Translations under genes and position numbers: made by a program | NCBI RefSeq assembly: GCF_000189635.1 | Contig: NW_002476162.1 | Coordinates: 248,001-312,000 of the forward strand | DNA from: Tetrahymena thermophila SB210 | Taxonomy: Eukaryota > Ciliophora > Oligohymenophorea > Hymenostomatida > Tetrahymenidae | Length of the DNA: 64,000 nucleotides | Direction of reading: 5' to 3' | Part shown: positions 11,232 to 47,639 of the stretch, piece after piece | How the letters are laid out: each line of letters opens with the position of its first letter | Position numbering within the stretch: position 1 is the first letter of the stretch | The notes under the pieces: model-generated | The model's database searches: none | Told to the model about the DNA's origin: nothing | What the model saw: the letters and a program-made list of their open reading frames with translations, nothing else

Positions 11232-12131
11232 TCATCTCTTAAAATGAAAATATAAATAAACAGATAAACCTAAAATACCAAATCCAATAATTCCTAAGGT
11301 TATTGATGAGCATATATATTGAAAACCAGTAAATTCTTCTTGTATTAAAGAGTTGCAAGAAGTGCAATACACTTCAACTTTATTAAATAAACAAACAGGT
11401 TTTGGATTATCTTTAGAGTATTCTTCCAAGTAAGAACAGCAAAAACAATCATAAATTACTTTAAAAATATTTGGGCACTTTTTTTATTATTGTTATAAAC
11501 AATATTAATCATATTCTTTTTTTCTGTTATAACTACTCTTGTAGTAGGGTATATCAATATTATGACTTGTAATTTAGCTAGTATTAGAAACTATATCACA
11601 ACAATTATTCATAAATTTGCAGCAACTTAAAGCACAATCTTAATCAAATTTAAATTTACAATCACAACAATCACAGCAGTCACAGCAGTCACAACTGGAG
11701 CAACAATCTGAATCGCATGAATCAAAAAAACCTATCAAAGCAAGTATTATTCCAATTATTGCAGAAATCAATCCACCAATAAAAAAAAATAAAATAACCA
11801 AAGAAAAACAAAATAGGGGCCTTGTAATGTAAAGATGCTAATATGTATTTAAGTGCTTACAATATTTTATTTCATTTATATCTCTAATAGTAAAATCGAT
11901 TTTTCGAGGCTAACAATCCTAATAACAAATAATTTGAGATTATCTCTTATCATCTGCTGGTGGAGGTGGAATAGGAATATCTATTTAACAATAACTTTTG
12001 TTTTAGTTTTCCATAAATTACTTCTCCATGTCATTAAATAAAAGTGGAGATGAATTTTCTAAATTTTCATTAGTTTATTAAATTTCATTAAAATCAATAA
12101 AAGATTCATTTATTGATTATTGTTTCTCCAT
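11232..12131 (-). CDS. cysteine-rich two-span membrane protein, paralogue 1 of 3
   Basis: A 299-residue, intronless reading frame (ATG 12131, TGA 11232) with many TAA/TAG Gln codons. Order of parts: acidic, Gln/Asn-rich cytosol-like N-terminus; the proline motif I-P-I-P-P-P-P-A at about 53-59; a C-x-H-rich stretch with E-I-K-Y-C-K-H and L-Y-I-T-R-P near 87-105; first hydrophobic span about 106-136; a dense cysteine block (repeats of C-D-C-C) about 139-178; a second motif N-K-V-E-V-Y-C-T-S-C-N at 250-260 with E-E-F-T-G; second hydrophobic span about 275-297 at the extreme C-terminus. The cysteine block could bind metal or form disulphides. Two paralogues lie downstream of it in window coordinates, on the same strand. 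Function unknown; the C-terminal module faintly resembles the first half of a LITAF-type zinc/membrane domain. Confidence 0.85.
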
Positions 12132-12289
12132 TTTTTTATTTAGTTTTGTTCTTTATTTATACCGATTACCAAATTTTATTTTATTAATATTAATTATTTT
12201 AATTTTTTAGGAAATTTTAAGAAATTAAAAGTTAACTAAATGATATATTTAACAAATTATAAAAGAATAATTCTTTAACAAAAATATAA

Positions 12290-12370
12290 CAAGAAAATAA
12301 ACAAAAAAATCAATAAATAAACAAATAAGCAAGTAAACAAAAAGCAAATGAACAAAGAAAAAAAGAAATA
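12290..12370. repeat. A-rich AAAC/AAAT/AAAG simple-sequence tract
   Basis: A run of degenerate tetranucleotides (AAAC, AAAT, AAAG) on the plus strand, almost free of T. Similar tracts occur in the intron near 5100-5190. Confidence 0.7.
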
Positions 12371-12714
12371 TTATCTATCTTTCTTCAAACCCTTTTATAT
12401 AGTATTACTTTTTCATGTTTTTTAAGATAATAAAAAAAAACTATTAATTGTTTCATTATTTTTAAGATTTTAATTATTTTTATTGAGTGAATACAAATGT
12501 TTTAGTATCCTTATGTATTGATCAGATTTTTGATTGCCTGATTAGGTAAAATATGCTTTATCAAATTTAATATATATTTTTTAATATTCGATATTATGAG
12601 ATCAAATATCATTTATTTTTGCATATGATTTAGAAGATCAAATAAAATTAAAATAAAAAAATGTTAAAAGGCTAACCTTTTTATAAAGGAGGATAATTAT
12701 CATATAGTTATTGA

Positions 12715-13090
12715 TAAATAATGATAGATGAATGAAAAATATATTTATTTTTTCAAATTTATCAATTATATAATAGTAACTTATTATACGAGAATAAAAT
12801 AGGTTAAGCAGAGTGAATTGAATTTATGGTATTTAGATCGTTCCTCAAAATTTAAACAATTAAATCATTACCATACATCGGACTTAATTAAAATAAAATA
12901 AAAATTTGATATATAATGGTAGATAAATGATAAATATATTTACATCTTCAAATCTATTAATATAATGTTTAGCTTATAAAACGAGAATTATAATGATTAT
13001 TTTAAGTGATTTTATATAATTAGATCATTCCTAAAAACTTAAACAATAATTGCTTTTATACATTGATTTAATTAAAATAAAAATAGTCTT
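12715..13090. repeat. imperfect direct repeat, two units of about 185 bp
   Basis: Shared landmarks in the same order in both units: GATAGATGAATG / GGTAGATAAATG, CGAGAATA / CGAGAATT, TTTAGATCGTTCCT / ATTAGATCATTCCT, then TTAATTAAAATAAAA. First unit starts about 12720, second about 12915. Noncoding, diverged, so not recent. Confidence 0.65.
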
Positions 13091-13204
13091 TATGATTAGA
13101 GTATTTACCACCTTACATTATTATTTTTTATCCCTAATTTTAAAATGATCTAATAAATGACAAGAATTCAAGTATAATCAAAAAAGCTAAATTTTTTAAC
13201 CATA

Positions 13205-13385
13205 AAATATTAGAGTAAAGCAATAAAATACGATCAAAAAATTTTGTTCAAAAATTATGATTAGCTCTATGTTACATTTTTAACATTAAAAAATAATTCT
13301 TATATTAGAGTAAATTAAGAAAATAAGATCAGAAACTTTTGTTCAAAAATCTTGATTGCTCACTGTTAAATTTTTTTACTACTTA
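13205..13385. repeat. imperfect direct repeat, two units of about 91 bp
   Basis: ATATTAGAGTAAA recurs at about 13208 and 13299, each followed by an A-rich GATCA block, TTTTGTTCAAAAAT and a GATTxGCTC block. No coding potential noted. Confidence 0.65.
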
Positions 13386-14119
13386 AAAAAAATTGATTGA
13401 TTATTTAGTTAATTTTTATATTTATTTTATTTATCTTCAATATTTAAAACAAATAAATCTATTATCAGAAGATAGAGCAATAAATTGAAATATCCTAGTT
13501 ATAATTGTTTAAGCTTGACTCTGATGCAAATTATGTAAAATACCATCACTGATTTATTTTTTTATTATTTTTTAGACTATATTTTTGATAAATAAAATAA
13601 TTAAGAAAAGAAAAGATTTGATAAATTAAATAATCTATTGGTATTCTAATATTATTTAAGAAATAATAAATGAAAATAGATATAAAAAACTAAGATAGCA
13701 ATAAGCAATCATCCATTTTTAAAATCAAATGGGTAAAAATATAAAAATTTATCATAGACAAAACATTAAATAAAAATAATTAAAAATTAAATTTGATATT
13801 AAAAAATAAAATCCAAACACTTTCTTACAATATTTATAATAAAGAAACGGATAAATAAATATAATAAGTAAGTAAGTTAAAATTAGAAATATTTTTTGTT
13901 ATATTTATTGAATTTAATAATATACTAAAATTAATTTAGCATGATACAAAAATAAAATAAATTTATTCCAAATTTTTATAAGTGAAGAAGTAAATATGGA
14001 AATCAATGAAATTAAATTAAAAATTATTTTAAATAATTAATTAAAATAATAAGGAATAAGTTAATTTATAATAAACAAATAAATGAAGAAAGAAATTATT
14101 TTAGTATTAAATAATATCT

Positions 14120-15352
14120 TCATTTTAAGAGTAAATAGAAATGGATAGAAATTCCTAATAAAGTAAAACCAATTATGCCCAAGGTTACAGATGGACATAT
14201 ATATTTTTATCCTGTGTATTATTCTTTTAGCTTTGAATTGCAATTAGTACAATAAACTTCTATTTTATTCATTAAGCATCCATCTACTGGCTTGTTAGTA
14301 GAGAGAATATCAAAACAAGAACAACATAGACAATTTTCAATAGCATCACATATACCTGGGTTTTTTTGATTCATTTAATACTAATTATATTCCATTTTTC
14401 GGTTTTATCTTTATGAGTAGTATGAAAAATCTATAGTTGATGATATTAATTACTGACTCTCACAGCAACTATCTAAAAAGTTAAAACAAGAAAAGTAACA
14501 ATTTTTATCACAAAAATCACAACTGCTATCACAGCATGATGCACAAGGACAGTCAGAATCTAATGCATCAGAAGCTATTGCCATAATAACTATTGCCACA
14601 ATCAAAGTAACTAATCCTCCGAGGAATAAAATTAATAAAATAGCAGATACATACACTAAAGGACTAGTTATATATAAGTGTTAATTTGGATTCCTATGAT
14701 TGCAGTACTCTATTTCTTTTATATCTCTTATAGGTATTTAATACATATCATTAATTTAATTTTATGGTTATTTTATTTATAATTAATTTTCCATTGCTGG
14801 AGGAGGTGGAATTGGTATTTCAATTTTTAAGTCATGATTGTATGAGTTACTATTATTATAAGGATATTCCATACTTGGTATTTGCATAGAATTATAATAA
14901 ATATTTGTTTTAACTTATTCTGAATTTATATCTTATTTATCATAAATGTTATTTTGAGTTTTGCTTTACAGATCACTTTTCAAAATTATTTGTTCATCTT
15001 CATAATTGAGTAGAGATTAGTGAAGAGCTTAACTATTTTATAAAATTAATAAAATATAAATTTATAAAATAAGTTTTATTTTCCAAAAATAATTCTTTAA
15101 ATAATAAAAATTTTTAAAAAATGGCAATAAAAAATAGGCATTATTAGGATATTTTTGTAATTAATATGAGTTCTAATTTGATAAATTTTATATATATGTA
15201 AACCAAAATTTAAATTTAGGAAAAAGAATGTACTTGATTGAATATCTGTAATCACAATCTTCATTTAAGTTTGTATTTATTTATTTTTTATCATCTTATG
15301 AAGGAATCTAGGCTTCTAAATCTTCTCTTTCAATTTAAGAATTTCTTTTCAT
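14120..15352 (-). CDS. cysteine-rich two-span membrane protein, paralogue 2 of 3
   Basis: Two exons, 15352-15234 and 15032-14120, joined across a 201-bp intron (GTACATTC...AAAATAG), give 343 residues in one continuous frame. The parts match paralogue 1 in order: I-P-I-P-P-P-P-A; I-R-D-I-K-E-I-E-Y-C-N-H then H-L-Y-I-T-S-P; a hydrophobic span starting after the S-P; a cysteine block (C-P-C-A-S-C-C ... C-D-F-C); N-K-I-E-V-Y-C-T-N-C-N with E-Q-Y-T-G; a last hydrophobic span with the shared L-G-I-I-G-F, ending L-L-L-K. The start M-K-R-N-S-Q is the first ATG of the exon. The intron sits in the Gln-rich N-terminal part at the same phase as in paralogue 3. Function unknown. Confidence 0.85.
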
Positions 15353-16246
15353 TTATTTTACTTTAGAAGAAAAATAATAAATACTTTACTTTTGGTTTAT
15401 GATTTTTTGGTTTCTTTTTTGTTTTTAATAATTATAAACTTATTAATTAATTTCGTCATTTGTAAACGAAATTTGTAAATCCATTTTTTATATTTTAAAA
15501 TCAAAATAAGCATTTTAAAAAATTGTAGTTTATAATTCAGTATATTAAATAAGCAAAACTATGTTAACTTAATTTTAAATATCATTTTAAGTAAAATTAA
15601 ATATGTTATAAAACTAAATTGCAAGCTTCATAAAATACCTAAACAAATTCTTTTATTGCTTGAGAATCGAAATATTTATTTATTTTATTTTCTCATCATA
15701 TAAATAAATAGGTATTTATAAGAAATTAATTATATAATTCATCATAATTCTTGCTTTTTGTATAAAGTTTAAGAGTTTTAAAATAATTTTTATCAATTAA
15801 AAATTTCTATATGCATTTTAATAGAAAATAATACATTTTAATATTAGTTTCTTTGAAAAATTTATATTGCTGAGATTGGTGAATTAAATAATGATTAAAT
15901 ATAATAATTTCTCGATCATTAATAATTTCAAATTTGATCAGAATTATCAAATTAGATGATCAGGAAATAGCTTATCTAATATTAATAGTATGATTACTAC
16001 AAATTGTATCCGTATTCAAAATACTAAATTATTTTTAATTTATTTGGGTAAAAAAGGATTTTATAAATATAAGACCTGTTTTAAAATAGGTAGATTGATA
16101 ATAATAATATGCATAATAAAAAATTTTTCATGAAACTTTAACAATTTTATACAAAAAAAATAGATTTATTATTTTCTTTACTTTTTAAAAAATACAAAAT
16201 AGCTTATTTTATCTGCTGAGTATCTAAGGTACATAATTAATATAAT
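15353..16246. other. intergenic, AT-rich
   Basis: Between the promoter side of paralogue 2 and the 3' end of the acidic-repeat gene. Several short palindromic AT stretches (for example around 15890-15975) but no gene. Confidence 0.5.
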
Positions 16247-18490
16247 TCAATCTATAATTAAATCGCATATTACTTTACAAATATTAAAATTGAGAATTTA
16301 AAATAGTTTTTGTTTTTTAAATACTTATATTTTAAGTAAAGTTTAATCTTCTAATAGCAATTCTGAAATATTCATAGAGTTTTTGTGAAGCTATGGATGA
16401 TAAATTAAACAAATATGATTTTTCATGATGCTTGGTACTTGAATACCCTTATTTCCAAGAAATTAAATTTTAACTTCTTTTTAATAAAAAAAATATTATT
16501 AATCAACTTTTGCAATAACTTTTATCCTATAATTATCCATTAATAACTATTATTTAGGAGGTTGTAGATTTAAAAAAACACCATAAGAAATAGAATTAAC
16601 TCTTAAATATAAGTAGTTAAAAGCAACATTTGGGATCTAAAATGTTTTTTTATAAATTTCTCCATATAATCTATCCATACACTAACTACAATCGCAAATT
16701 TAATTTCACTTAATTTTAAGTCTATTAACAGAAAATCAGTCGATAGGTTTACTTGCTCTTATTATAACAGATTTTATATTCCAACCAATTAACTTTTACT
16801 ATGGTCAATATCTAAGCTATTGCTAAAATCTGTAGGTATTATACGTGCATCAAGAGATAATTGAAGCTTTTTGAAATGAATTTTTCTCAATTCATTAATA
16901 TTTATAGAAAGAGGATTTTTAAATAAAGCTTGATAATTATTTTGCTCATACATTGTCTGAATTATTAAATTTTAATAGTTATTTAAAATTGATTCAGTTT
17001 TGCTTGGTCCTTAAAAACTATCTTGATTATCATTTTCTTCACAGCTGATATATTCCTTTTGTTCCTTTTACTTTTTCCTATCTCCTTAGTTTGTAAGGCT
17101 TTCATCGTTACTTTCTTATTCTTCCCAACTATCATCAGAACTTTCATCCAAATAATCATCTGCATTCCAGCTTTGATCTGAGCTTTCATTTGAGTCAATA
17201 TTTTTATTTTATTTACTTTAATATTTAATTTCTTTGTAGTTACTGTCTGCACTTTATTCTTAGTCATCATCTTAGCTTTAGATTTTGTTTTTTTATAAGA
17301 TTGCATATGCAGCCTATTCTGGAATATCATCATCATCACTACCTTTTTAATTTTAATTACCAATTTATTAACTTCTTTCTAAGCTTTTATTTTAACATTT
17401 TTAGTTTTTATTTTTAAATTCAAAATAACATTCTTCTTCAGAGTCTTCATTCTCACTTTTATCATAGCTCTCATCTGAGTCACTAACTTTATTTTATTCT
17501 TAGCTTTAATATTCATTTTTTTCATAGTTACTATCTTAACTTTAGATTTTTTTTTTTTTTTGGATTGCATATGCAGTATTATCTGAAATTTCATCATCAC
17601 TCTCCTTTTAATCTTAACTATCAATTGATTAACGTCTTTCTAAGCTTAGCTTTTAACATTCTTAGCTTTTATTTTCATATTTAAAAGTAAATTCTTCTTC
17701 AGAGTTTTCTTCTTATGGGAGTAATTAACCCTTAATCATAGTCTTTTAAATAGTTTCACTTTAAGCACTTAGCATTGAGCTCTTAATTTTTTACTCTAAA
17801 TAGTAAAATTTACTTAAAGACTGAGTAAATGAAAGGAGATATTTTGTAAACTCTTTTTTTATTTTAGTGATATTTATTTTTTAATTCAATTAAGAGCTAA
17901 AATCATCATTAAAGTCCATGATTTAAGTTTCCCATGATTCACAATACTTGAGATTCAAATCATTAACTGAGCAAAGGTAATACAGTTCTTCTTTTTTTTC
18001 TAGACAAATAAATTAGCTTGATTTTTACAAGCTTTGTAAGATCTGTAGTATGTTTTCCACAATCAAGTTAATTATTTTTTTTTTAAATTTAACTCAGATT
18101 TATTATTTTATTAGATTTTATAACTTTTAGATATCTTTTTAAAGTTAATTATGAAGCAGATTCAATCTCAATAATTTTATAGATTCCATAATTATGTGAT
18201 ATTTAATTATGAGAAAGCTAAATATTTTATTAAATACCCCAAATCATCATAAAATTTAATTCTGATAATTGTTAGAATTTTTGATGATTTTTGATATTTT
18301 AAAACCTTCTATTTTAGCTAAGAATGTTTGTTTGTTTTCGAAAAACCAATCTTAATACAGTAAATAATTTTTTTACTCTCAAAATAATAATTCCGAATAT
18401 CTTATTTAGAGATTTTATTTTAAATGAAGCTATACCTTAATGCATTAATTCTTCTTTATTTTAATTTTGGTTTTATTGTTTTTTACTCAT
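16247..18490 (-). CDS. acidic Ser/Asp/Gln-rich repeat protein; frame changes unresolved, possibly decaying
   Basis: The best-supported part is a long open frame from about 18060 to 16800. It holds hydrophobic/helical segments and then an acidic region with two diverged copies of a block ending A-Y-A-I (about 17600 and 17310), each followed by Lys, Gln and runs of S, D and E. A homopolymer of 15 A at 17547-17561 keeps this frame. A start M-S-K-K-Q-Q at 18490 and a C-terminal piece from about 16690 (C-D-C-S-Q-C-M-D, later Y-R-I-K-V-I-A-K-V) to TGA at 16247 also look coding. However, reading 18400-18000 and 16800-16690 needs several frame switches for which I cannot place ordinary introns. Either there are very short introns or the gene is damaged. 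Family not recognised. Confidence 0.5.
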
Positions 18491-19127
18491 TATTTTTGTA
18501 TTGTTTATTTTATGAATTGAGAAGTAGTTAATTTATTTTTATGAAAATTGAAGCGCTCTGCTATGAAGTGCTGTGTTTTCTTTAGAATCAAAATATTTCT
18601 ATCTGATTTTGTTTAAAAAATATATAAAATTGTTCTAAATATTTTAAGCTATTTTTTCATTCATCATATTATACTAATATAAAGATTAAGTACTTCAAAA
18701 TAGAAAATTAAGCTTACTAATTAATCATTAGCAACACAAATATACATTGATATAAATCTTCAATCTATTTTTCTAAACTTACTAATTGATTGATAATAAT
18801 CTATTTTATTTATGCATATCTAATAAAATATTTTATTTGTAGATAAAAAAAGTTGTTATTATTTTTTACTTTATGAATTAAGAAGTAGATAATTTATTTT
18901 TATAATAAGAGATATACTTTTTAAATAGACTTAAAAATTGAAAACAAAATTAAATCTTATAAAGTAATAATAAGCAACATAAATAAGTATTTTAAATGTT
19001 AAATATTAATACTAATTTTTTTTATTTTATAAACTGATTCGTTGGTTGATAAATAAATATTTTATCCAAATATATATACCTGATAAAATACTTTACTAGT
19101 ACAAAAAAAATTTTTTTATCCTTCTGA
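18491..19127. other. intergenic, with an ankyrin-gene fragment
   Basis: AT-rich. Contains a short piece resembling the ankyrin kinase gene (listed separately) and an imperfect direct repeat: AATTxAGAAGTAG plus the following 20 or so bases near 18515 recurs near 18873. Confidence 0.5.
18565..18595 (-). pseudogene. short relic matching an ankyrin-repeat segment of the kinase gene
   Basis: About 30 bases are identical at all but one position to 3252-3281 of the ankyrin kinase gene, where they encode the D-S-K-E-N-T-A-L-H part of an ankyrin repeat. Here the same peptide can be read on the minus strand but the flanks do not continue as ankyrin sequence. Too long for chance in such AT-rich DNA, given its GC content. 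It looks like the remnant of a duplicated copy. Confidence 0.55.
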
Positions 19128-20236
19128 TCATGATTGGTAATGCTTCAAAAGAAGAATAGATACTATAAGAATAATGACTCCAAAAATACCAAGGAGTAAA
19201 GAAGGAACTATATGCTTAGTTCCTGTCCATTCTTCTTTTAATTTAGTGTTACAAGCTGTGCAGTAGACTTCAACTTTATTTATCATACAACTATCAGTTG
19301 CGCTCCCAAGATTTATACTGTCCATGCAAGAACAACAACAACAGTCATATAAACAACTAAATAATGTATCACAACATGATGGACTTTAACTTTAGTAGTC
19401 ATAGTAATTCCTTCTTCTATGATATTTGTGTCTGTAGTACGAATGGTCGTATCCACAATTAATATAATAAGCACTTTAGTATCTATTAAAAGTAAAAATT
19501 TCACAACATCTAAGACAACAGTCACATAAATAGTAGCATTCACAAGACCCACAATTACAATTGCAATTATTACAAGCACCAATCTTACAGTCGCAGTTTC
19601 CCTTACCATCTGTTAAAGCAAGAACTGCAACCACAATTAAAATTATTAATCCAACAATAAGAGAAATAATTCCCATTATATAGAATGCTATGATTATTAC
19701 TGAGAAGAATATTTTAGGACTTGAAACATAGAGATATTTTTGAGGGTTTTGATGCTTGCATTCTTAAATTTCTTAAACTGTTCTAATTTCAAATTATTCA
19801 GCATTAAAAGGTTAGCTCAGAGAATATTCTGTTTAAATAGGATTTTATAATTGAGGTGGAGGAGGAGGAGCAACTGGTAGATTTTAGTTCTGTTGGATAT
19901 TTTAATTTTAATGCATATGGCCAACATGTAAATTGCTCATGAAAGGACGCTCCATATAAGGAGGGACCTGATTATAATTTTAGTTTATATTGATTTCATA
20001 TGGCTGTTACTACATATTAACAACATAAGCTCCTTGAATAGGTTCACCTTGAGGTACAGAATTGTGGAATGAACTATTACTATTTTGAAATAAAAGAAAT
20101 TTAAGAATAGTTTAATTGATATTTTAAAAAGTTACTTGATTGCCTACTCGCTTGGATAATGATAATTAGGTTAATTTTACTGATTATTCTAATAATTATA
20201 GCTATTTTAGCTATTATCCATAGGTTTATAATCCAT
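19128..20236 (-). CDS. cysteine-rich two-span membrane protein, paralogue 3 of 3
   Basis: Exons 20236-20136 and 20079-19128, separated by a 55-bp intron (GTAACTTT...AAAATAG), give 350 residues. Start taken as M-D-Y-K-P-M-D at 20236; the frame stays open upstream without another convincing ATG, so a longer N-terminus is possible. Same architecture as the other two: Gln/Asn-rich N-terminus, A-P-P-P-P-P, E-I-Q-E-C-K-H-Q-N-P then L-Y-V-S-S-P, a hydrophobic span, a cysteine block (C-N-C-N-C-G-S-C-E-C and C-D-C-C-L-R-C-C), a Tyr/His/Arg-rich linker unique to this copy, C-C-C-C-S-C, N-K-V-E-V-Y-C-T-A-C-N with E-E-W-T-G, and a final span ending H-Y-Q-S. The intron phase equals that of paralogue 2. 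Confidence 0.85.
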
Positions 20237-38876: not shown

Positions 38877-41800
38877 TTATTAAGTTAAGTACATTTCCTC
38901 TTATATGTAATATCTTGGCTTTAGTTATAGTTAAAGATGGTTTGTGAGTAATTCATAAAGGGAAAATAATATTTATACTCTTTAATCAAATCAAAATCAC
39001 AAAGTTATTAAAATTTTTCATGCTTTTCACTATTAGGATAATTGTGGACGAGACCAGCAGAATTAATTAAATTATTATTTTGTTAATTATTTTAATTATG
39101 ATTTTATTGATTTTACTATCCTTCTGAAGGTATAATATTAAAACTATGCATAAACTAACCTTTTTATGATATTATACTTGGCTAAGGATCTATTTTTATT
39201 TACGTCATTGATACAATATTATTTTTTTTATTTTAGTTGCTAAACAATTAGTTTTAGTTTTATTAAACTGAAAGATTTTGATTTTAATTCTGAGAATTAT
39301 GTAGTATCATTTACAATTAATTAATGATCTATAATAAGGTCATATTATTATTGTTATTTTATTACATCTACACTAAGTCTGTATTTGTGCTATAGATATC
39401 TTGATTTGAGTTTGCTTACTGCTGAATTAAAATAGGATTGTGAGTCATTATAGATATTCTCCGATTTACTTATTATTTCTATTACTATAGCTGAGGATTT
39501 TGGTTAATCTCTTTGGCACTTGTCTTTAAGCTTGGCATTTTCATTATACATTTGTCTATTTTATCTCGCTAGCTTGATAAGTCTTTATCAGATGAGCTTT
39601 TTTGACTTTCATCATCTTGTTCTAAATCTGAGGTTACAGTCAAGTTATTCCAAAGGTTTTTCTTTAGTGGGGAAAGGATAATATCTACTTATTCATTAAT
39701 TTGCTAAGCTTATAAAGATTAAAAATTTTATTAATCATTATTTTGAGTTTTAGCCACCTTGAGTAAAATGTTATCAATATAATTTGATTCTTTACTTCCA
39801 CTTAAATTGTTACCTTAATTTATTTGGTTATTTTGAAGACAAACAGTTGGAGGATTCTGAAAAATTAAAGACTCAGTATCTAAGTCTTCGAATGAATATT
39901 TTAATTCCTCCATAGAATTAATTTCAATGTATTTATCAGAATTCATCTGTAGTTGAGGAAAATATCTGAAAAATTAATTATCACTAAAATTTCTATTAAT
40001 TAAATCTTAGAAAGTTCCTAATCTATCTCCCATAATCATATATGTAAGCTAGATTCTGAGTAATCGAAGTGCTTGTTTAACTTCTTAGTTATTAACTAGA
40101 GAGTTTTACTTTTTTTCAAGAAATCTTTTCTTCTTACATCTATTTAAAACAGGAATATTATATTGCTCTTTAGCAATAAGATTAGGTTTATTCGGCATGT
40201 ATCTGATCAAGTTACAGTTAAGCACTGAATGGCTGTAATTTAAACAGGATAAGCATTGCTCTCCTAATGTTATACTTTCTTACAAATATTTATCTCTTAT
40301 CATGCAATATTTCTCCTAAATATTCAAATATAAAATCAATAATGTATAAATTAAATAGTTTTATTAATTTTTGAATGGATTTAAAGTTCTTTAAATTTGT
40401 AAAAATGAGCTACATATTCATCTTTATTTTGTTTAAGTATCCTCTAAAAGTCCTCTTGATTGAGAAATATGATTTATGTTATCTATTTGCACCTAGCAGT
40501 CACCTCGTGTATTTTATCAACAAAGAGTCCTTAGTGGTTAAATGAGTCTCCTTTCTACATTTAGTAAATATTATTTTAAAATATAAATTATTTATTTATT
40601 AACATTTTTTAATTACCTTCAGAAAACCTAAGGAAATATTATTTTTACCTTAAACCTCAATATCAAATTCAATTTATCCTTTGTTGATAAAAAAAAAATT
40701 ACTGTTTTTCTCTCCTTATTTAAAGATTTCTTCGCCAGGCCCATAAGTTTTTTCTTTCATTAAAACAGACAGTGATTACAAAAAATCTTTTGAGAAATTC
40801 ATACTAAAAAGTTTAATTTCTTGCAATATTCTTCCATAATATTCTTAATAAACCTTAAGTAAAAAATAATGATAAAAAGTCAACAAAAATTCTAAATTTA
40901 CTTGTTATCGGAGTTTCTAGGGTATCGATTACAAGAAATTCTCTCCTGATAACGAATACTAAAGCTCTTTTTCTTATTTGATTGTAAACTCTAAAAATTT
41001 AACAACTGAAATTTAAATTGATTTTGAAATTTTCCTTTCCTCCATGTAATTGACAATTTCAAACTTCTTTTAATTATATTTTCCCTCTTATCGAGATAAC
41101 TCTTAAAATAAAGCACCTATTGTATTGACAACATATGCAAATGTTATAGCAGAAATAAGGACAAAAAATATAACGTAAATTCTTTCGTTAACCGTCTTAG
41201 GTACTATGTCACCATAACCAACTGTGACCATAGTAATAAAAGAAAAGTAAAGTGCTGTTATATATTAAATTTCCCAATCTTAATTTTATAAATTGTAAAA
41301 TTAGAGCCAAGTTTGATCTGAACTATTATAATTCTAGCTAAAAAAAAAGTAACCACAAGCATTATAATGAGCTAATAAAATAATAATTATAAAAAGCCTT
41401 AAAAGTGTTTCACTAACAGGATGCTTTTATTTAAGCTAAAAGTTTTATTCAAAATGATAATAAGATTGGTATAGCCACTTAATTCTAAAAATAAAAACAA
41501 GTTCTAACGGTCCTTGATCATTAAAAACTAAAGCAATTAAAGACAATAAAATCATACTTATATTAAATAAATTGTATTTAATAATTTTAACTCTTGTTGT
41601 AACTATTTCTACTCCTTGATAGTATCCAGTATTAATTATTATTATTAAATCAGCTAATAAGAAACAAATAGAAAATATTTTAATGTAGTAATTAAGCACA
41701 ATTCCAAAGCCGAAGCGAAATCCGAAAGCAATTACATGAAAAAAAATGAATAATATTTCAAATACTTCCCACATTATAGAGAATATTTCATTAGGCTTTA

Positions 41801-42749
41801 ATATGAAGGTAGCTAAATTAAATCTTTCATTATATATTTTAGAAGTTATTACTTAAATAACATCTCCAATTACTTCAAAGTGAAAATCTCTTAATCTTCT
41901 ATAATTGTACTAGGGTGAAAGACTCGTCATCTTTTTTACAAACTTCTTAATGTTATTTAGCTTATTAAAATCTGAAAGAATTTTTTTAATTTTTATTTCT
42001 TTTTAGGCTTATCTCTAAAGCATGGTTCCCTCTTTTCTAAGCACATGTTAACTTGGAAATTAATTGCAAATCCCTTCTTAAACAGTATCATTACATGCAT
42101 TGACTTCATATTTTATAGCATCTTCCCCACCTTGAACTGTAAAATCGAATTGTGTTTAATTTAAGATTGTTTGATTCTATTAGTTATTTAAAGAGCAATC
42201 TTGACATTCCTAGCCAGAAGCTGCCATATATTTAAAAAAACTTTCATAGTTTTCTCCACTAACTCTCTTAGGAGAAGACTCTTTTTCAATTAGCAGACTT
42301 CCATTTCTATTTTTCATAACTCTTATCCCTGTTTTAGTAGCAACAGAAATGGGAGATTGCAATTTTGTTGAATCTCTTTTAGATAATTTCTATAATGCCT
42401 TCACCATATAAGGGTTTTTAGTTGCATTTAATATTGATGAGTTTAAGCTCAAGTCAATTAATAATTCCTAATTGTTTTACTTGCCATTATTTTTGTTGGA
42501 ATCTGTAAGAGATTAATTATTGAGATCTTTATTGAATTAATTAATGTCTTCAAAACCATTATCATCTGCAATACTATCTCTTTTTATATACAAATCATAA
42601 TAATCTCTATTATCTACAGAATATTGATTTGATATTTTGCTTTTTATGTCCTCTATGTTGCTGTCTTATTAATTGCAATAATAGTTATTTTAATGCTAAT
42701 CGCTCTTTTAAGAATTTTAAAAAGAGTCTGATCTTTAAATATCTGACAT
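38877..42749 (-). CDS. K+ channel with C-terminal cyclic-nucleotide-binding domain (CNG/HCN/EAG type)
   Basis: Membrane channel for K+. Start M-S-D-I-Q-R-S-D at 42749, TGA at 38877. After an S/N/Q-rich cytosolic N-terminus, hydrophobic segments for S1-S4 lie between about 41800 and 41440 (M-W-E-V-F-E-I-L-F-I-F-F is S1). S5 and pore follow: L-A-H-Y-N-A-C-G-Y-F, matching the family's A-H-W-x-A-C, then A-L-Y-F-S-F-I-T-M-V and the filter T-V-G-Y-G-D at about 41230, which indicates K+ selectivity. S6 is A-I-T-F-A-Y-V-V-N-T-I-G. A C-linker-like stretch and part of a cyclic-nucleotide-binding fold (Y-G-P-G-E-E-I-F-K-Q-G-E, F-F-F-I-N-K-G-Q-I near 40720) come next; introns lie near 40865-40900 and 40565-40615. 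The C-terminus is very rich in N, Q and S. S4 has few basic residues, so gating may be only weakly voltage-dependent. Confidence 0.9.
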
Positions 42750-44081
42750 AACTAGCCCTTCTTAAAAAGTAAATTTATGAAAAGAGTTTATCAAAAAAAT
42801 ACTCCTACTAACAAAAAATTAAATATACTAAACTTAATTAACAATCAATTTTTTGTTTTAACATATAAATTTTTCTATTTAATCAAAATGTATTTGATCA
42901 TTATATTCATATATTAAATACAAAAAACTAGAATTATAGAATCTCAATACCATTTAGTTAACAAAATCAATACACTATAATTATATATAACAGTATTATG
43001 CTTAATTAAAAATACAATTATTAAGTATAATTTTATTATATTTATATAGCTTTATCGTCACACCATTAATTATTGGTTAAATAACTACAATAAAATTATT
43101 CAAAATTTCAATATAATATTTTAAAAATTGAACTGATCTTTGAAAGAAATAATTCTATCCAACCAACATTTTAATAAAATAGTTAATTAAGTAATGCTGA
43201 ATATTATTACATATATAATATCGATCTATTATCATGAAATTATAAAATAAAAATAAGCTGATGAAAAATCTTTTTATTAATTTCAATTATTCAAAAATTA
43301 GTTTTTATTTTAAAATATTTAAAAACATTCTTATCAATAAAAACAAACTGAAGATAATCTTTTATTTAATTTAAAAACACATATTTAAAATGAATAAATT
43401 ATATTGTATTTTTCCAAAATTATTTCAAATTTTTATCATTTAAATAATTTGATACTTCAATAAGTACTGACTAATTAAAATTAAAACTATTAATTAATAT
43501 GTAATTCTTTCAAGCTCTCTATTCTATGATTAAATTATTAGTTATATTTCATAGAATTTAAAGATTTACACTGATAAATATTATTATTAAAACTTTTATT
43601 GTCTGATAACATTTTTGATATTTCATATAATTAAAGGATTTACATTTTAATTGATAAATATGATGAATTAATTAATTTATTTTTGATTTTTAATAGATGA
43701 GAAATGATAATTAATAAAAAATAAAATGATTAATTTATTATATTTAATTATATTCAAACACTTTATATTCTGATAAAATTATAAGTGATATTTCATAGAA
43801 TTAATGGATTTACATTTTAATTGATAAATATGAAGAATTAATTTATTTATTTTTGATATTAAATAGATGAGAAATGATCATTAATAAATAATAAAATGAT
43901 TAATTTATCATATTTAATAAATTATGTTCAAACATTTTATATTCTAAAAAAATTATTATTGATATTTCATAGAATTAATAGATTTACATATTAATTGATA
44001 TAAATTACAAATTAATTTTACATATTTTTCATTAATAATAGATAGATTCTCAGATGAAAATTAAAAAATTTATTCAAAGTG
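42750..44081. other. intergenic with a tandem repeat
   Basis: Promoter side of the K+ channel gene. From 43547 on it is made of diverged tandem copies of an AT-rich unit (listed separately). No gene. Confidence 0.5.
43547..44040. repeat. AT-rich tandem repeat, unit about 172 bp
   Basis: TTTCATAGAATTAA(T/A)(G/A)GATTTACA, followed by a run reading TTAATTGATAAATATGA, recurs at 43621, 43791 and 43965 (spacing 170 and 174). A shortened first copy starts at 43547. Units two and three also share TAGATGAGAAATGAT. The array abuts the 3' end of the B-box gene. Confidence 0.8.
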
Positions 44082-44699: not shown

Positions 44700-47639
44700 A
44701 TAAGTAGGAATTATTTTAACTAATACTTCTCTTTATTTGATATTTATGATAATAATAATAATAATAAATATAAATCAACTAATTTATTTAAAATTTCATA
44801 AATAGCTTTAAGTATTTTTAATCTAATTTAATAAAAATTAGACCATTCATTTTAAGAATCAAAATATTTTCAAAAATTCATAAAACAATGAATATAATTT
44901 CTTTTTTGACTATTATTTTTTATTAGTTTAAAACTAAAAGTATTAATGTTTAACTTTAAATAGTATTAATTTTTTTAATTTTGATTAAAAATTATTTTAA
45001 ATAAAAAATTATAAATTTAAAATAACCTATAACACTACAATTTATATGTATTAAAATCTTAAAGTTTTCTGGTTTTTAAATTAAAAAAAAAGCTAAAATA
45101 AACCCTTTTAAGCAAAAGAATTCTTAAATTGGGTTATCAGTAAACTATAAACATCAAATTTAAACTTTTTAAATAAATTTTACTTTGATTTTTTGTTGAT
45201 TAAAGTTAGAAAAGGAAATTTACTTATAAAAAAATATGATTATATTTTTCAGAAAAGTGAAGGATATAACAAATTAAATCTGAATAAATTTTTAGTAAAA
45301 AATAAATAAAAATAAGTTGATAAGAAATAAAGATAGATAGCTTGCTCATTTTTGTATTTTATTTATCACAAATTTTAATTTATTTTATTCATTATTATCT
45401 ATTTTAGTTTTTAATCTTTATACTATTTTTATTATCCTCTAATAGGAAAATAATGAATTTATTTTTATAAAGATTTTTTGCTTTTCTAAATAAATTTAAT
45501 ATTGAAATCAGACGAATAAATAACTAAATTTAATTCATTAGAGTATTGCAACTTGAATTTTGATAAAAATGTATTCTAAGTAACTTAAAAAATAGAAATT
45601 TCTTTTTTTTGATTAGAGGGTAATACTTTAATATTTTGTATTTTTATGTAGGTCTAAATAACTATTCAATTTCAATAATACATAAATTTTACAATTTTTT
45701 TATTTATTAAGTTACCACTATTAAATTTCTTTTTGTAACTTTAAGAGTTTCTTAATTAAAAGATTTGGAGGTAGAAAGGCTTGAATCAATTAGGTTAAAC
45801 TTCAAACAAAGTAAAATTTTTTTATAAACAATCGTTGTGTAATTAAATTGTTTATTTATTTATTCTTTTAAAGGATAGTGAGTTATAATTTACTTATTTA
45901 TAAAAAAATTGTTAAATATTTTTTTATAAAATTGGTAAAATAAAAGTTAAATTAGTTTTTGAAAAGTCTTTTTGATTTAAGAAAGTAATTTTGCTGAAAA
46001 TTTAAATAAAACTTGTTCATAATGTAATTCTATTTGAATCTGATATTTATTTCAATTAATTTGCTTTCTATTTAGTTAGATTTGTAATGTATTTAAAAGA
46101 ATGATCAAATATTGATAGAATTATATCTTGAATTTTATCGAATGTTAAGGTCCAAAAAGCGTGGGTGATCAAACTTCTGATCATCTTTCGAATTTTTAAT
46201 TGTGAAAGTAGAAAATTTTACTTACGTATTTTTTTTATTCAATTTAGTAAATGTAAAAAACTAGCTTTACATTTTAAGAAATAAAAAGTGCTTTAGTTTT
46301 TTATTTTTGAAAAAAATTGAAGTTGTTTCATCAAATTAAATCATATTAACTTATGTACTTCTATTTAGTATACTTTCAGTTAATCTTAAAATAAAATAAA
46401 AAATTTAACCAGTAAAAGAAGAAAAACGATCTGTATACATTTTATTTGTAAACTACAAAATTATATAATATTTAGCTTTAATTAAATATTTTTCTTATTT
46501 TTATTTAAACTCTTTATGGAATTAGACATTAGACTCTATTAAGGCCTTTTTACAATAAAGCAAATATATAGAAATCAAAGCAAATTATTAAATAATTCTA
46601 AATATAGTAAAAACACTATAATAATGTCAGCAGATGTAACCATACTCAATCATTAATTAATATTTTTTTTTTTAAATTCAGGTAAATAATTAAAAATCTT
46701 TCTAATACTGCAATATTCTTAATAATCTTTTATATCTTCAATTTGTAATAAATAAGTAACGAGAAGAGGAAACAGATCTGAATAAATTCAGTTTTACACA
46801 TTTTTACTTTAATAAAAATACACAATAATGCATATTAGCTAATCAAGATTTTAAAGCAAACATTTTTATTTCTTTGAATTTATAATAACTTATTTCAATT
46901 TGAACTAATTTTATTTAGCTATTTTTTTAAAGAAATAAGAAAAAAAGATGACTGAACTATTGTTGCTTACATTTAGATAAAATAAATAAAAATACATTTA
47001 TTTATATTTATATTACTATGATATAAATAAGAATAGTATTTTAGTAACTTTTAATTTAAAAAATCAAAGTAATCTATTTAGTAAAAAGTCTTACTTAATT
47101 AAATAAAGAAATATTTAAATTTTGGTAAATATTGCTAATCAATTTTACAGTATGTTTTTGTGAAATTATCAAGCGAAGCAAAAAATGCCTAAAATTAAAA
47201 CTATCTCAGGAATCACTTTTTTTTTGTTTTCTCATAATTATGATAAATAAATTAATGCCTGATTTCAGGCTAAAAATTGCTGATTAATTAAAGGAAATTA
47301 AGTAAATTTATTGCATAGATAATTAAATTGACGATAAATAAATATCCGCGCTTATAGACTTTGCTCATAGAAAAAATTAACAAAGACATAAAAACTAATA
47401 AATAATGAATATTTAAATTATTAATACAATAAAAACAGAAACAAAAGAAATTCAAACATATTTGAAAATCAATCAATTTAAAAATATCTCAACTAATCTA
47501 CAATACATAATAATCAAATTTTCTCTGACATTTCTTAATATAATAACAAAAACAAAGAGCCCAAGAATAATCATTGGCAACATTCCCAAGAGTTCATCCT
47601 ATATTTTTGTATTTAATTTAATTTTAGAAAGTTAGATAC
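44700..47639. other. long intergenic region between divergent genes
   Basis: About 2.9 kb of AT-rich DNA between the B-box gene (-) and a plus-strand gene. Some stretches read like scraps of coding sequence for 30-60 codons in shifting frames, but none makes a gene. A less AT-rich islet at 46130-46215 is listed separately. Confidence 0.45.
46130..46215. other. GC-enriched islet: possible structured RNA or exon relic
   Basis: Clearly less AT-rich than the 1 kb on either side. Contains the self-complementary TGATCA twice around AACTTC, an adjacent CTTTC...GAAAG pairing and AAGTAGAAAATTTTACTT. On the minus strand it can also be read as about 35 codons (K-D-D-Q-K-F-D-H-P-R-F-L-D-L-N) ending in TGA. 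I cannot decide between a small RNA and an exon fragment. Confidence 0.3.

Follow-up and report, generated by a model that had tools for sequence, protein, structure and literature searches.

What kind of protein is encoded by three similar genes that lie close together on the minus strand of Tetrahymena thermophila SB210 contig NW_002476162.1, and do these proteins have relatives elsewhere? Families of membrane proteins with no described relative remain an open field in ciliate genomics. A sequence-only reading of the locus proposed that the three genes arose by local duplication and that they encode cysteine-rich proteins with two membrane spans which belong to no nameable family. The analysis described here covers the window, i.e., the whole stretch of 64,000 nucleotides (positions 248,001 to 312,000 of the contig), as well as the genome itself and several collections of known proteins.

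Gene models and their neighbourhood

The three frames of 299, 343 and 350 residues that had been read on a single strand are all present on the minus strand under the ciliate code. Member 1 (11232-12131; 299 residues, 30 cysteines) is intronless, open in code 6 and homologous to members 2 and 3. Member 2 (14120-15352, minus strand; 343 residues, 21 cysteines) and member 3 (19128-20236, minus strand; 350 residues, 26 cysteines) have frames that are open once a predicted intron is spliced out, namely 201 nt at 15033-15233 in member 2 and 56 nt at 20080-20135 in member 3. In-frame TAA and TAG codons occur 16, 23 and 20 times in members 1, 2 and 3, respectively, and TGA is used solely as the terminal stop. 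As had been suggested, the two predicted introns, both of which lie on the minus strand and have GT-AG borders, share the same phase (phase 2). Their GC content is 13% and 14%, whereas the coding parts of the two genes have 26% and 31%. The end of the member 3 intron had to be corrected: when it is placed at 20134, as in the earlier reading, the frame is broken, and one base further, at 20135, the frame turns out to be open. In both genes the codon split by the intron encodes Asn and is preceded by an Ile codon, which fits a single ancestral intron behind the two. Such an intron would have been lost from member 1.

A Glu/Ser-rich repeat gene that does not belong to the family lies between members 2 and 3 (16423-17919, minus strand). 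It matches no Pfam family at E ≤ 0.001 and contains an internal direct repeat (17159-17453 vs. 17444-17713, 73% identical). Direct repeats were also seen in the intergenic DNA between members 1 and 2, at 12711-12898 and 12906-13082 and again at 13207-13394 (73.5% over 189 bp; a 95-bp unit is present twice). Eight further frames in the window were scanned with Pfam, and five of them fall into a family: a leucine-rich-repeat protein, two cyclic-nucleotide-binding proteins, an ion channel and an FAD-binding protein. These neighbours give no pointer to the role of the three genes. The ion channel frame (40500-43382, minus strand) matches Pfam Ion_trans_2 above the cut-off and a cyclic-nucleotide-binding domain below it; among solved structures, SthK and cyclic-nucleotide-gated channels are nearest to it.

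Common descent of the three genes

The five-part order ascribed to the three genes (a Q/N-rich N-terminus, a poly-proline motif, an N-module, a first span with a Cys block, and a C-module with a final span) is borne out, and their likeness lies far beyond chance. Pairwise alignment of the three members gives scores of 569, 420 and 493, and the maxima reached by shuffled sequences (300 shuffles per pair, with the composition of each segment kept) are 173, 165 and 168. Since the scores lie so far above those of composition-keeping shuffles, a shared richness in Cys and Gln cannot explain the likeness. The motif C-x-H...LY[IV] of the N-module and the motif [IV]xVYCTxCN...TG of the C-module are found in all three members, with the C-x-H and C-x-x-C invariant, as is a CxCCS[CY] motif ahead of the C-module. 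The poly-proline motif reads IPIPPPPA in members 1 and 2 (8 of 9 positions identical between them) and VAPPPPPQ in member 3. These data show that the three genes are of common descent.

Conservation is uneven along the proteins. The claim that the folded parts are conserved holds for the C-module (13-15 of 21 positions identical between pairs) and the N-module (11-17 of 25; in member 2, residues 140-164, PIRDIKEIEYCNHRNPNQHLYITSP, encoded at 14660-14734 on the minus strand), which are the best-conserved long segments. Span 2 follows with 11-16 of 28. Span 1, with 10-13 of 35-36 identical positions, does not exceed the Cys block (9-16 of 30-31) in conservation. Similarly, the Cys block and the linker (9-17 of 36-38) were said to diverge, and they are indeed weaker than the modules, but the Cys blocks of members 1 and 2 are not strongly diverged (16/31). 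The second cysteine cluster has 8-9 of 27 positions identical between pairs.

Local duplication is supported both by these alignments and by searches of the organism's own genome (101 Mb in 445 contigs, the window included). The queries were the cores of all three members and two modules of member 2, and every one of them returned the three genes. Member 2 finds its paralogues with E values of 4.5e-51 and 1.7e-38. A 59-residue query with the N-module of member 2 matched the three genes only, and the same is true of a 52-residue query made of its C-module and span 2 (residues 292-343; 14123-14278, minus strand). The sole extra match, obtained with the core of member 2, is a fragment at C113:74992-75201 (L005; L009:3985-4199), around which 218 bp share 81% DNA identity with part of member 2. 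Because it contains an in-frame TGA, and because the stop-to-stop frame across the match amounts to just 109 residues, it is called here a relic of member 2. This relic sits between frames of 479 and 460 residues that look alike by eye. No intact fourth copy was found in these searches, which score only the candidates from a loose first look, so that distant copies may escape. A DNA pattern for YCTxCN has 19 matches in the genome, as compared to 7 in the control. Three of them are the genes described here, and the remaining 16, inspected by eye, appeared to be cysteine-repeat proteins or frames without the family architecture. A cytochrome c1 segment of this genome is identical to the T. thermophila entry 7tgh_3D of the PDB over the 208 residues aligned. 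A high share of tandem duplicates is reported for the T. thermophila genome (PMC6564038).

Searches for relatives and the LITAF lead

The statement that the proteins belong to no nameable family is upheld within Pfam, NCBIfam, PHROGs and the PDB, and nothing lies above the curated cut-offs in Pfam or NCBIfam. In Pfam, member 1 matches MSP7_C below the cut-off (E 0.0033, 18.6 bits, cut-off 27), and member 3 matches DUF4064 (E 0.012, 16.2 bits, cut-off 32.1) and ODV-E18 (E 0.5), likewise below it. When the six isolated modules were scanned against Pfam, four sub-cut-off matches were obtained for the C-module and six for the N-module of member 3, and none for the remaining four modules. NCBIfam and PHROGs each gave one match, in one of the three members (E 1.4 and 0.099, respectively). 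The best PDB matches are the "2A protein" entries 8a2f and 7zua, with E values of 0.010-0.019 over about 40 positions (0.01 over 38 positions for the top one). This match covers the C-module and span 2 only and was judged to be a chance likeness of the hydrophobic segment. Pattern scans of IMG/VR and GTDB returned 67 and 81 stretches, none of which was confirmed. The two collections cover viruses and prokaryotes, and the scans thus say little about other ciliates. In the literature, the family is unnamed in the titles and abstract openings listed, from which genes confined to supplementary tables would escape. In general, the three genes make up a small family that arose by local duplication and for which Pfam, NCBIfam, PHROGs, the PDB, IMG/VR and GTDB offer no convincing relative.

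One lead deserves a closer account. The C-module resembles the first knuckle of LITAF proteins (PF10601) followed by hydrophobic sequence, and the invariant C-x-H and C-x-x-C could form a four-ligand site. According to this explanation, the two motifs would bind one zinc ion on the cytosolic face of the membrane, with the hydrophobic stretches pinned into one leaflet. The genome itself contains 35 PF10601 matches, all above the cut-off. With a profile of 28 of the 30 own-genome LITAF segments, hhalign at default settings aligns the C-module to the first half of LITAF with a score of 24.05 and a probability of 44% over 34 columns. When the columns were shuffled with CTxC kept, however, 5 of 150 shuffles also reached this score. 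With the option -glob 0 the probability falls to 3% for the same C-module and to 0.7% for a longer C-module, and the N-module and core give 0.1-0.2%. HMMER gives best domains of only 2.8-4.0 bits against LITAF, and in the reverse direction the best of the 28 LITAF segments scores 5.3 bits (E 0.031) against a C-module profile. PF10601 is unreported for the three full proteins at E ≤ 10, where the HMMER filters drop most weak matches. Among the isolated C-modules it is reported for member 3 but not for the other two, and that match is at half the cut-off (12.2 bits, E 0.22, cut-off 23.8). The module in question scores higher against Tetraspanin (14.2 bits, E 0.035), again below the cut-off.

LITAF proteins were taken here to have two CxxC-type knuckles flanking one hydrophobic stretch, the second knuckle being HxCxxC. 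HxCxxC is absent from all three members, and the motif ahead of span 1 is C-x-H rather than CxxC. Together with the sub-cut-off scores and the shuffles that score as high, this led us to reject membership in the LITAF family. The proteins may share with LITAF a way of anchoring in the membrane that is assisted by zinc, and the LITAF-like explanation as a whole appears unlikely. The likeness to LITAF proteins comprises a Gln/Pro-containing N-terminal part, a CxxC knuckle beside a hydrophobic stretch and local gene clusters. Unlike LITAF proteins, the present ones have two hydrophobic stretches with 18-25 cysteines between them. As to the clusters, 10 of the 35 PF10601 matches fall within about 22 kb (C241:47289-68898), at the loci L017-L019, L021, L022, L024, L034 and L045 and in two matches without a locus; two matches at 47289-47577 may belong to one gene.

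The cysteine-rich loop and known systems

The two membrane spans proposed earlier are recovered by hydropathy in all three proteins. Two low-confidence AlphaFold2 models based on the three-sequence alignment (mean pLDDT of 39 and 44, with the loop below 50 throughout) agree in placing a long helix (31 and 36 residues) at span 1 and another helix at the C-terminus. With span limits set by hand from the hydropathy profile, the loop between the spans has 133, 117 and 130 residues and 24, 18 and 25 cysteines in members 1, 2 and 3, respectively; thirteen loop cysteines are invariant across the three members. The 15 residues ahead of span 1 contain 2, 1 and 2 Lys/Arg, the net charge of the loop is -6, -5 and -2, and the tail after span 2 carries Lys or Arg in two of the three members. 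This charge distribution weakly favours a cytosolic location of both ends. The argument is weakened by member 3, which has an Arg-rich linker and whose tail as cut (HYQS) lacks Lys/Arg. The proteins probably span the membrane twice, with cytosolic ends and the loop outside or in a lumen.

We favour, at a probability of roughly 35%, a two-span protein with cytosolic ends whose luminal or extracellular cysteine loop holds metal. In such a protein, the Q/N-rich, poly-proline N-terminus would stay in the cytosol and might recruit partners, and span 1 would be a signal anchor. The loop, 117-133 residues long and with 18-25 cysteines, would be located either outside the cell or in an organelle lumen, and span 2 would bring the short C-terminus back into the cytosol. 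Within the loop, the CC, CxC and CxxC clusters would most likely bind zinc, or else copper or cadmium, as thiolate clusters, and the CxxC that is invariant in the C-module would provide a fixed pair of ligands next to span 2. Such a protein would be a metal buffer tethered to the membrane or a scaffold stabilised by metal; metal or compartment could differ among the three copies.

Judged from cysteine density, the loop could plausibly bind metal or be rich in disulphides. In the Cys block of member 1, 11 cysteines fall within 20 residues (positions 139-158), with Asp and Ser between them. This run seems too dense for ordinary disulphides and looks more like a metal-thiolate ligand set. The part of the block that reads CDCCDCCDCCDC is encoded by a 9-nt tandem repeat (11658-11695, minus strand; 4.2 copies, 89% matches, Tandem Repeats Finder), which fits a ligand-rich stretch tolerant of length change. 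The counts of CC and CxC are not clearly beyond those in random order of the same residues: P is 0.18 for CC in member 1, 0.76 for CC and 0.89 for CxC in member 2, and 0.08 for CxC in member 3.

A cysteine-rich loop flanked by two spans, in a protein whose ends are both probably inside, would also suit an ectodomain that gains its fold through disulphides in the secretory pathway and plays a structural, receptor or chaperone-like part. CDC50/LEM3 proteins, in which two spans enclose a region with cysteines, share this layout with the family, whose own loop is 117-133 residues long. In the PDB, span 1 plus the Cys region matches CDC50A, but the match is not significant (E 0.35), and the Pfam scan reports no CDC50 domain for any of the three members; a relationship to CDC50/LEM3 was rejected on these grounds. 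Furthermore, runs such as CDCCDCCDCC would be poor partners for disulphides, and an N-x-S/T sequon is absent from the loops of members 2 and 3, with one in member 1. We regard a disulphide-folded ectodomain as rather unlikely.

All three members also have cysteine clusters close behind span 1 and, in the form CxCCS[CY], ahead of the C-module, which would be expected if the Cys blocks were cytosolic and palmitoylated, fixing the protein to a particular membrane in the manner of a cysteine-string protein. Cysteine strings, however, are hydrophobic, and acidic Asp stands among the cysteines of member 1. S-acylation would moreover leave the CxxC of the C-module unexplained, so that this explanation seems distinctly doubtful. 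Cysteines adjoining a span are likewise found in PLAC8 and CYSTM, which are cysteine-rich membrane modules, the former with the motif C[CL]x4CPC. Both were rejected as relatives: no Pfam match to either is reported, and C[CL]x4CPC is absent from the three members.

As it stands, the locus is an ordinary find, a small duplicated family. It is nevertheless compact, with just three genes, and belongs to a genetically tractable model organism, and its invariant CxH and CxxC make topology and metal content directly testable. If the favoured metal-holding loop proves true, a membrane-tethered form would be added to the metal-handling proteins of ciliates.

The comparison that bears most directly on a metal-holding loop is with the metallothioneins of Tetrahymena. 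According to PMC1808422, these make up family 7, with a CC-rich subfamily 7a and a subfamily 7b without CC. We looked for the motifs C2X6 (CC, six non-Cys residues, C) and CXCXXCXCCK of 7a and CKCXXCKC of 7b, as given in that source. They occur in none of the three proteins, and membership in family 7 was rejected on this result and on the CC and CxC usage described above. It is very unlikely that the genes form a membrane-tethered metallothionein-like family, with a metal-thiolate loop between the spans, a block that grows by 9-nt slippage and paralogues moving toward different metals; in that case the CC-rich member 1 might tend toward Cd/Zn and the CxC-rich member 3 toward Cu. Several details differ as well: a CCC run is found once, in member 3 only, Lys stands beside Cys in just 4, 0 and 2 places in members 1, 2 and 3, and Phe and Tyr lie within the Cys blocks, which is atypical of metallothioneins. 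Dense CC or CxC clusters are nonetheless common to both groups. In the Cys block, 12 of the 16 cysteines of member 1 are in CC and 9 of the 13 of member 3 are in CxC, which recalls the split between 7a and 7b described in PMC1808422. Unlike the Tetrahymena metallothioneins, the present proteins carry their clusters together with two membrane spans.
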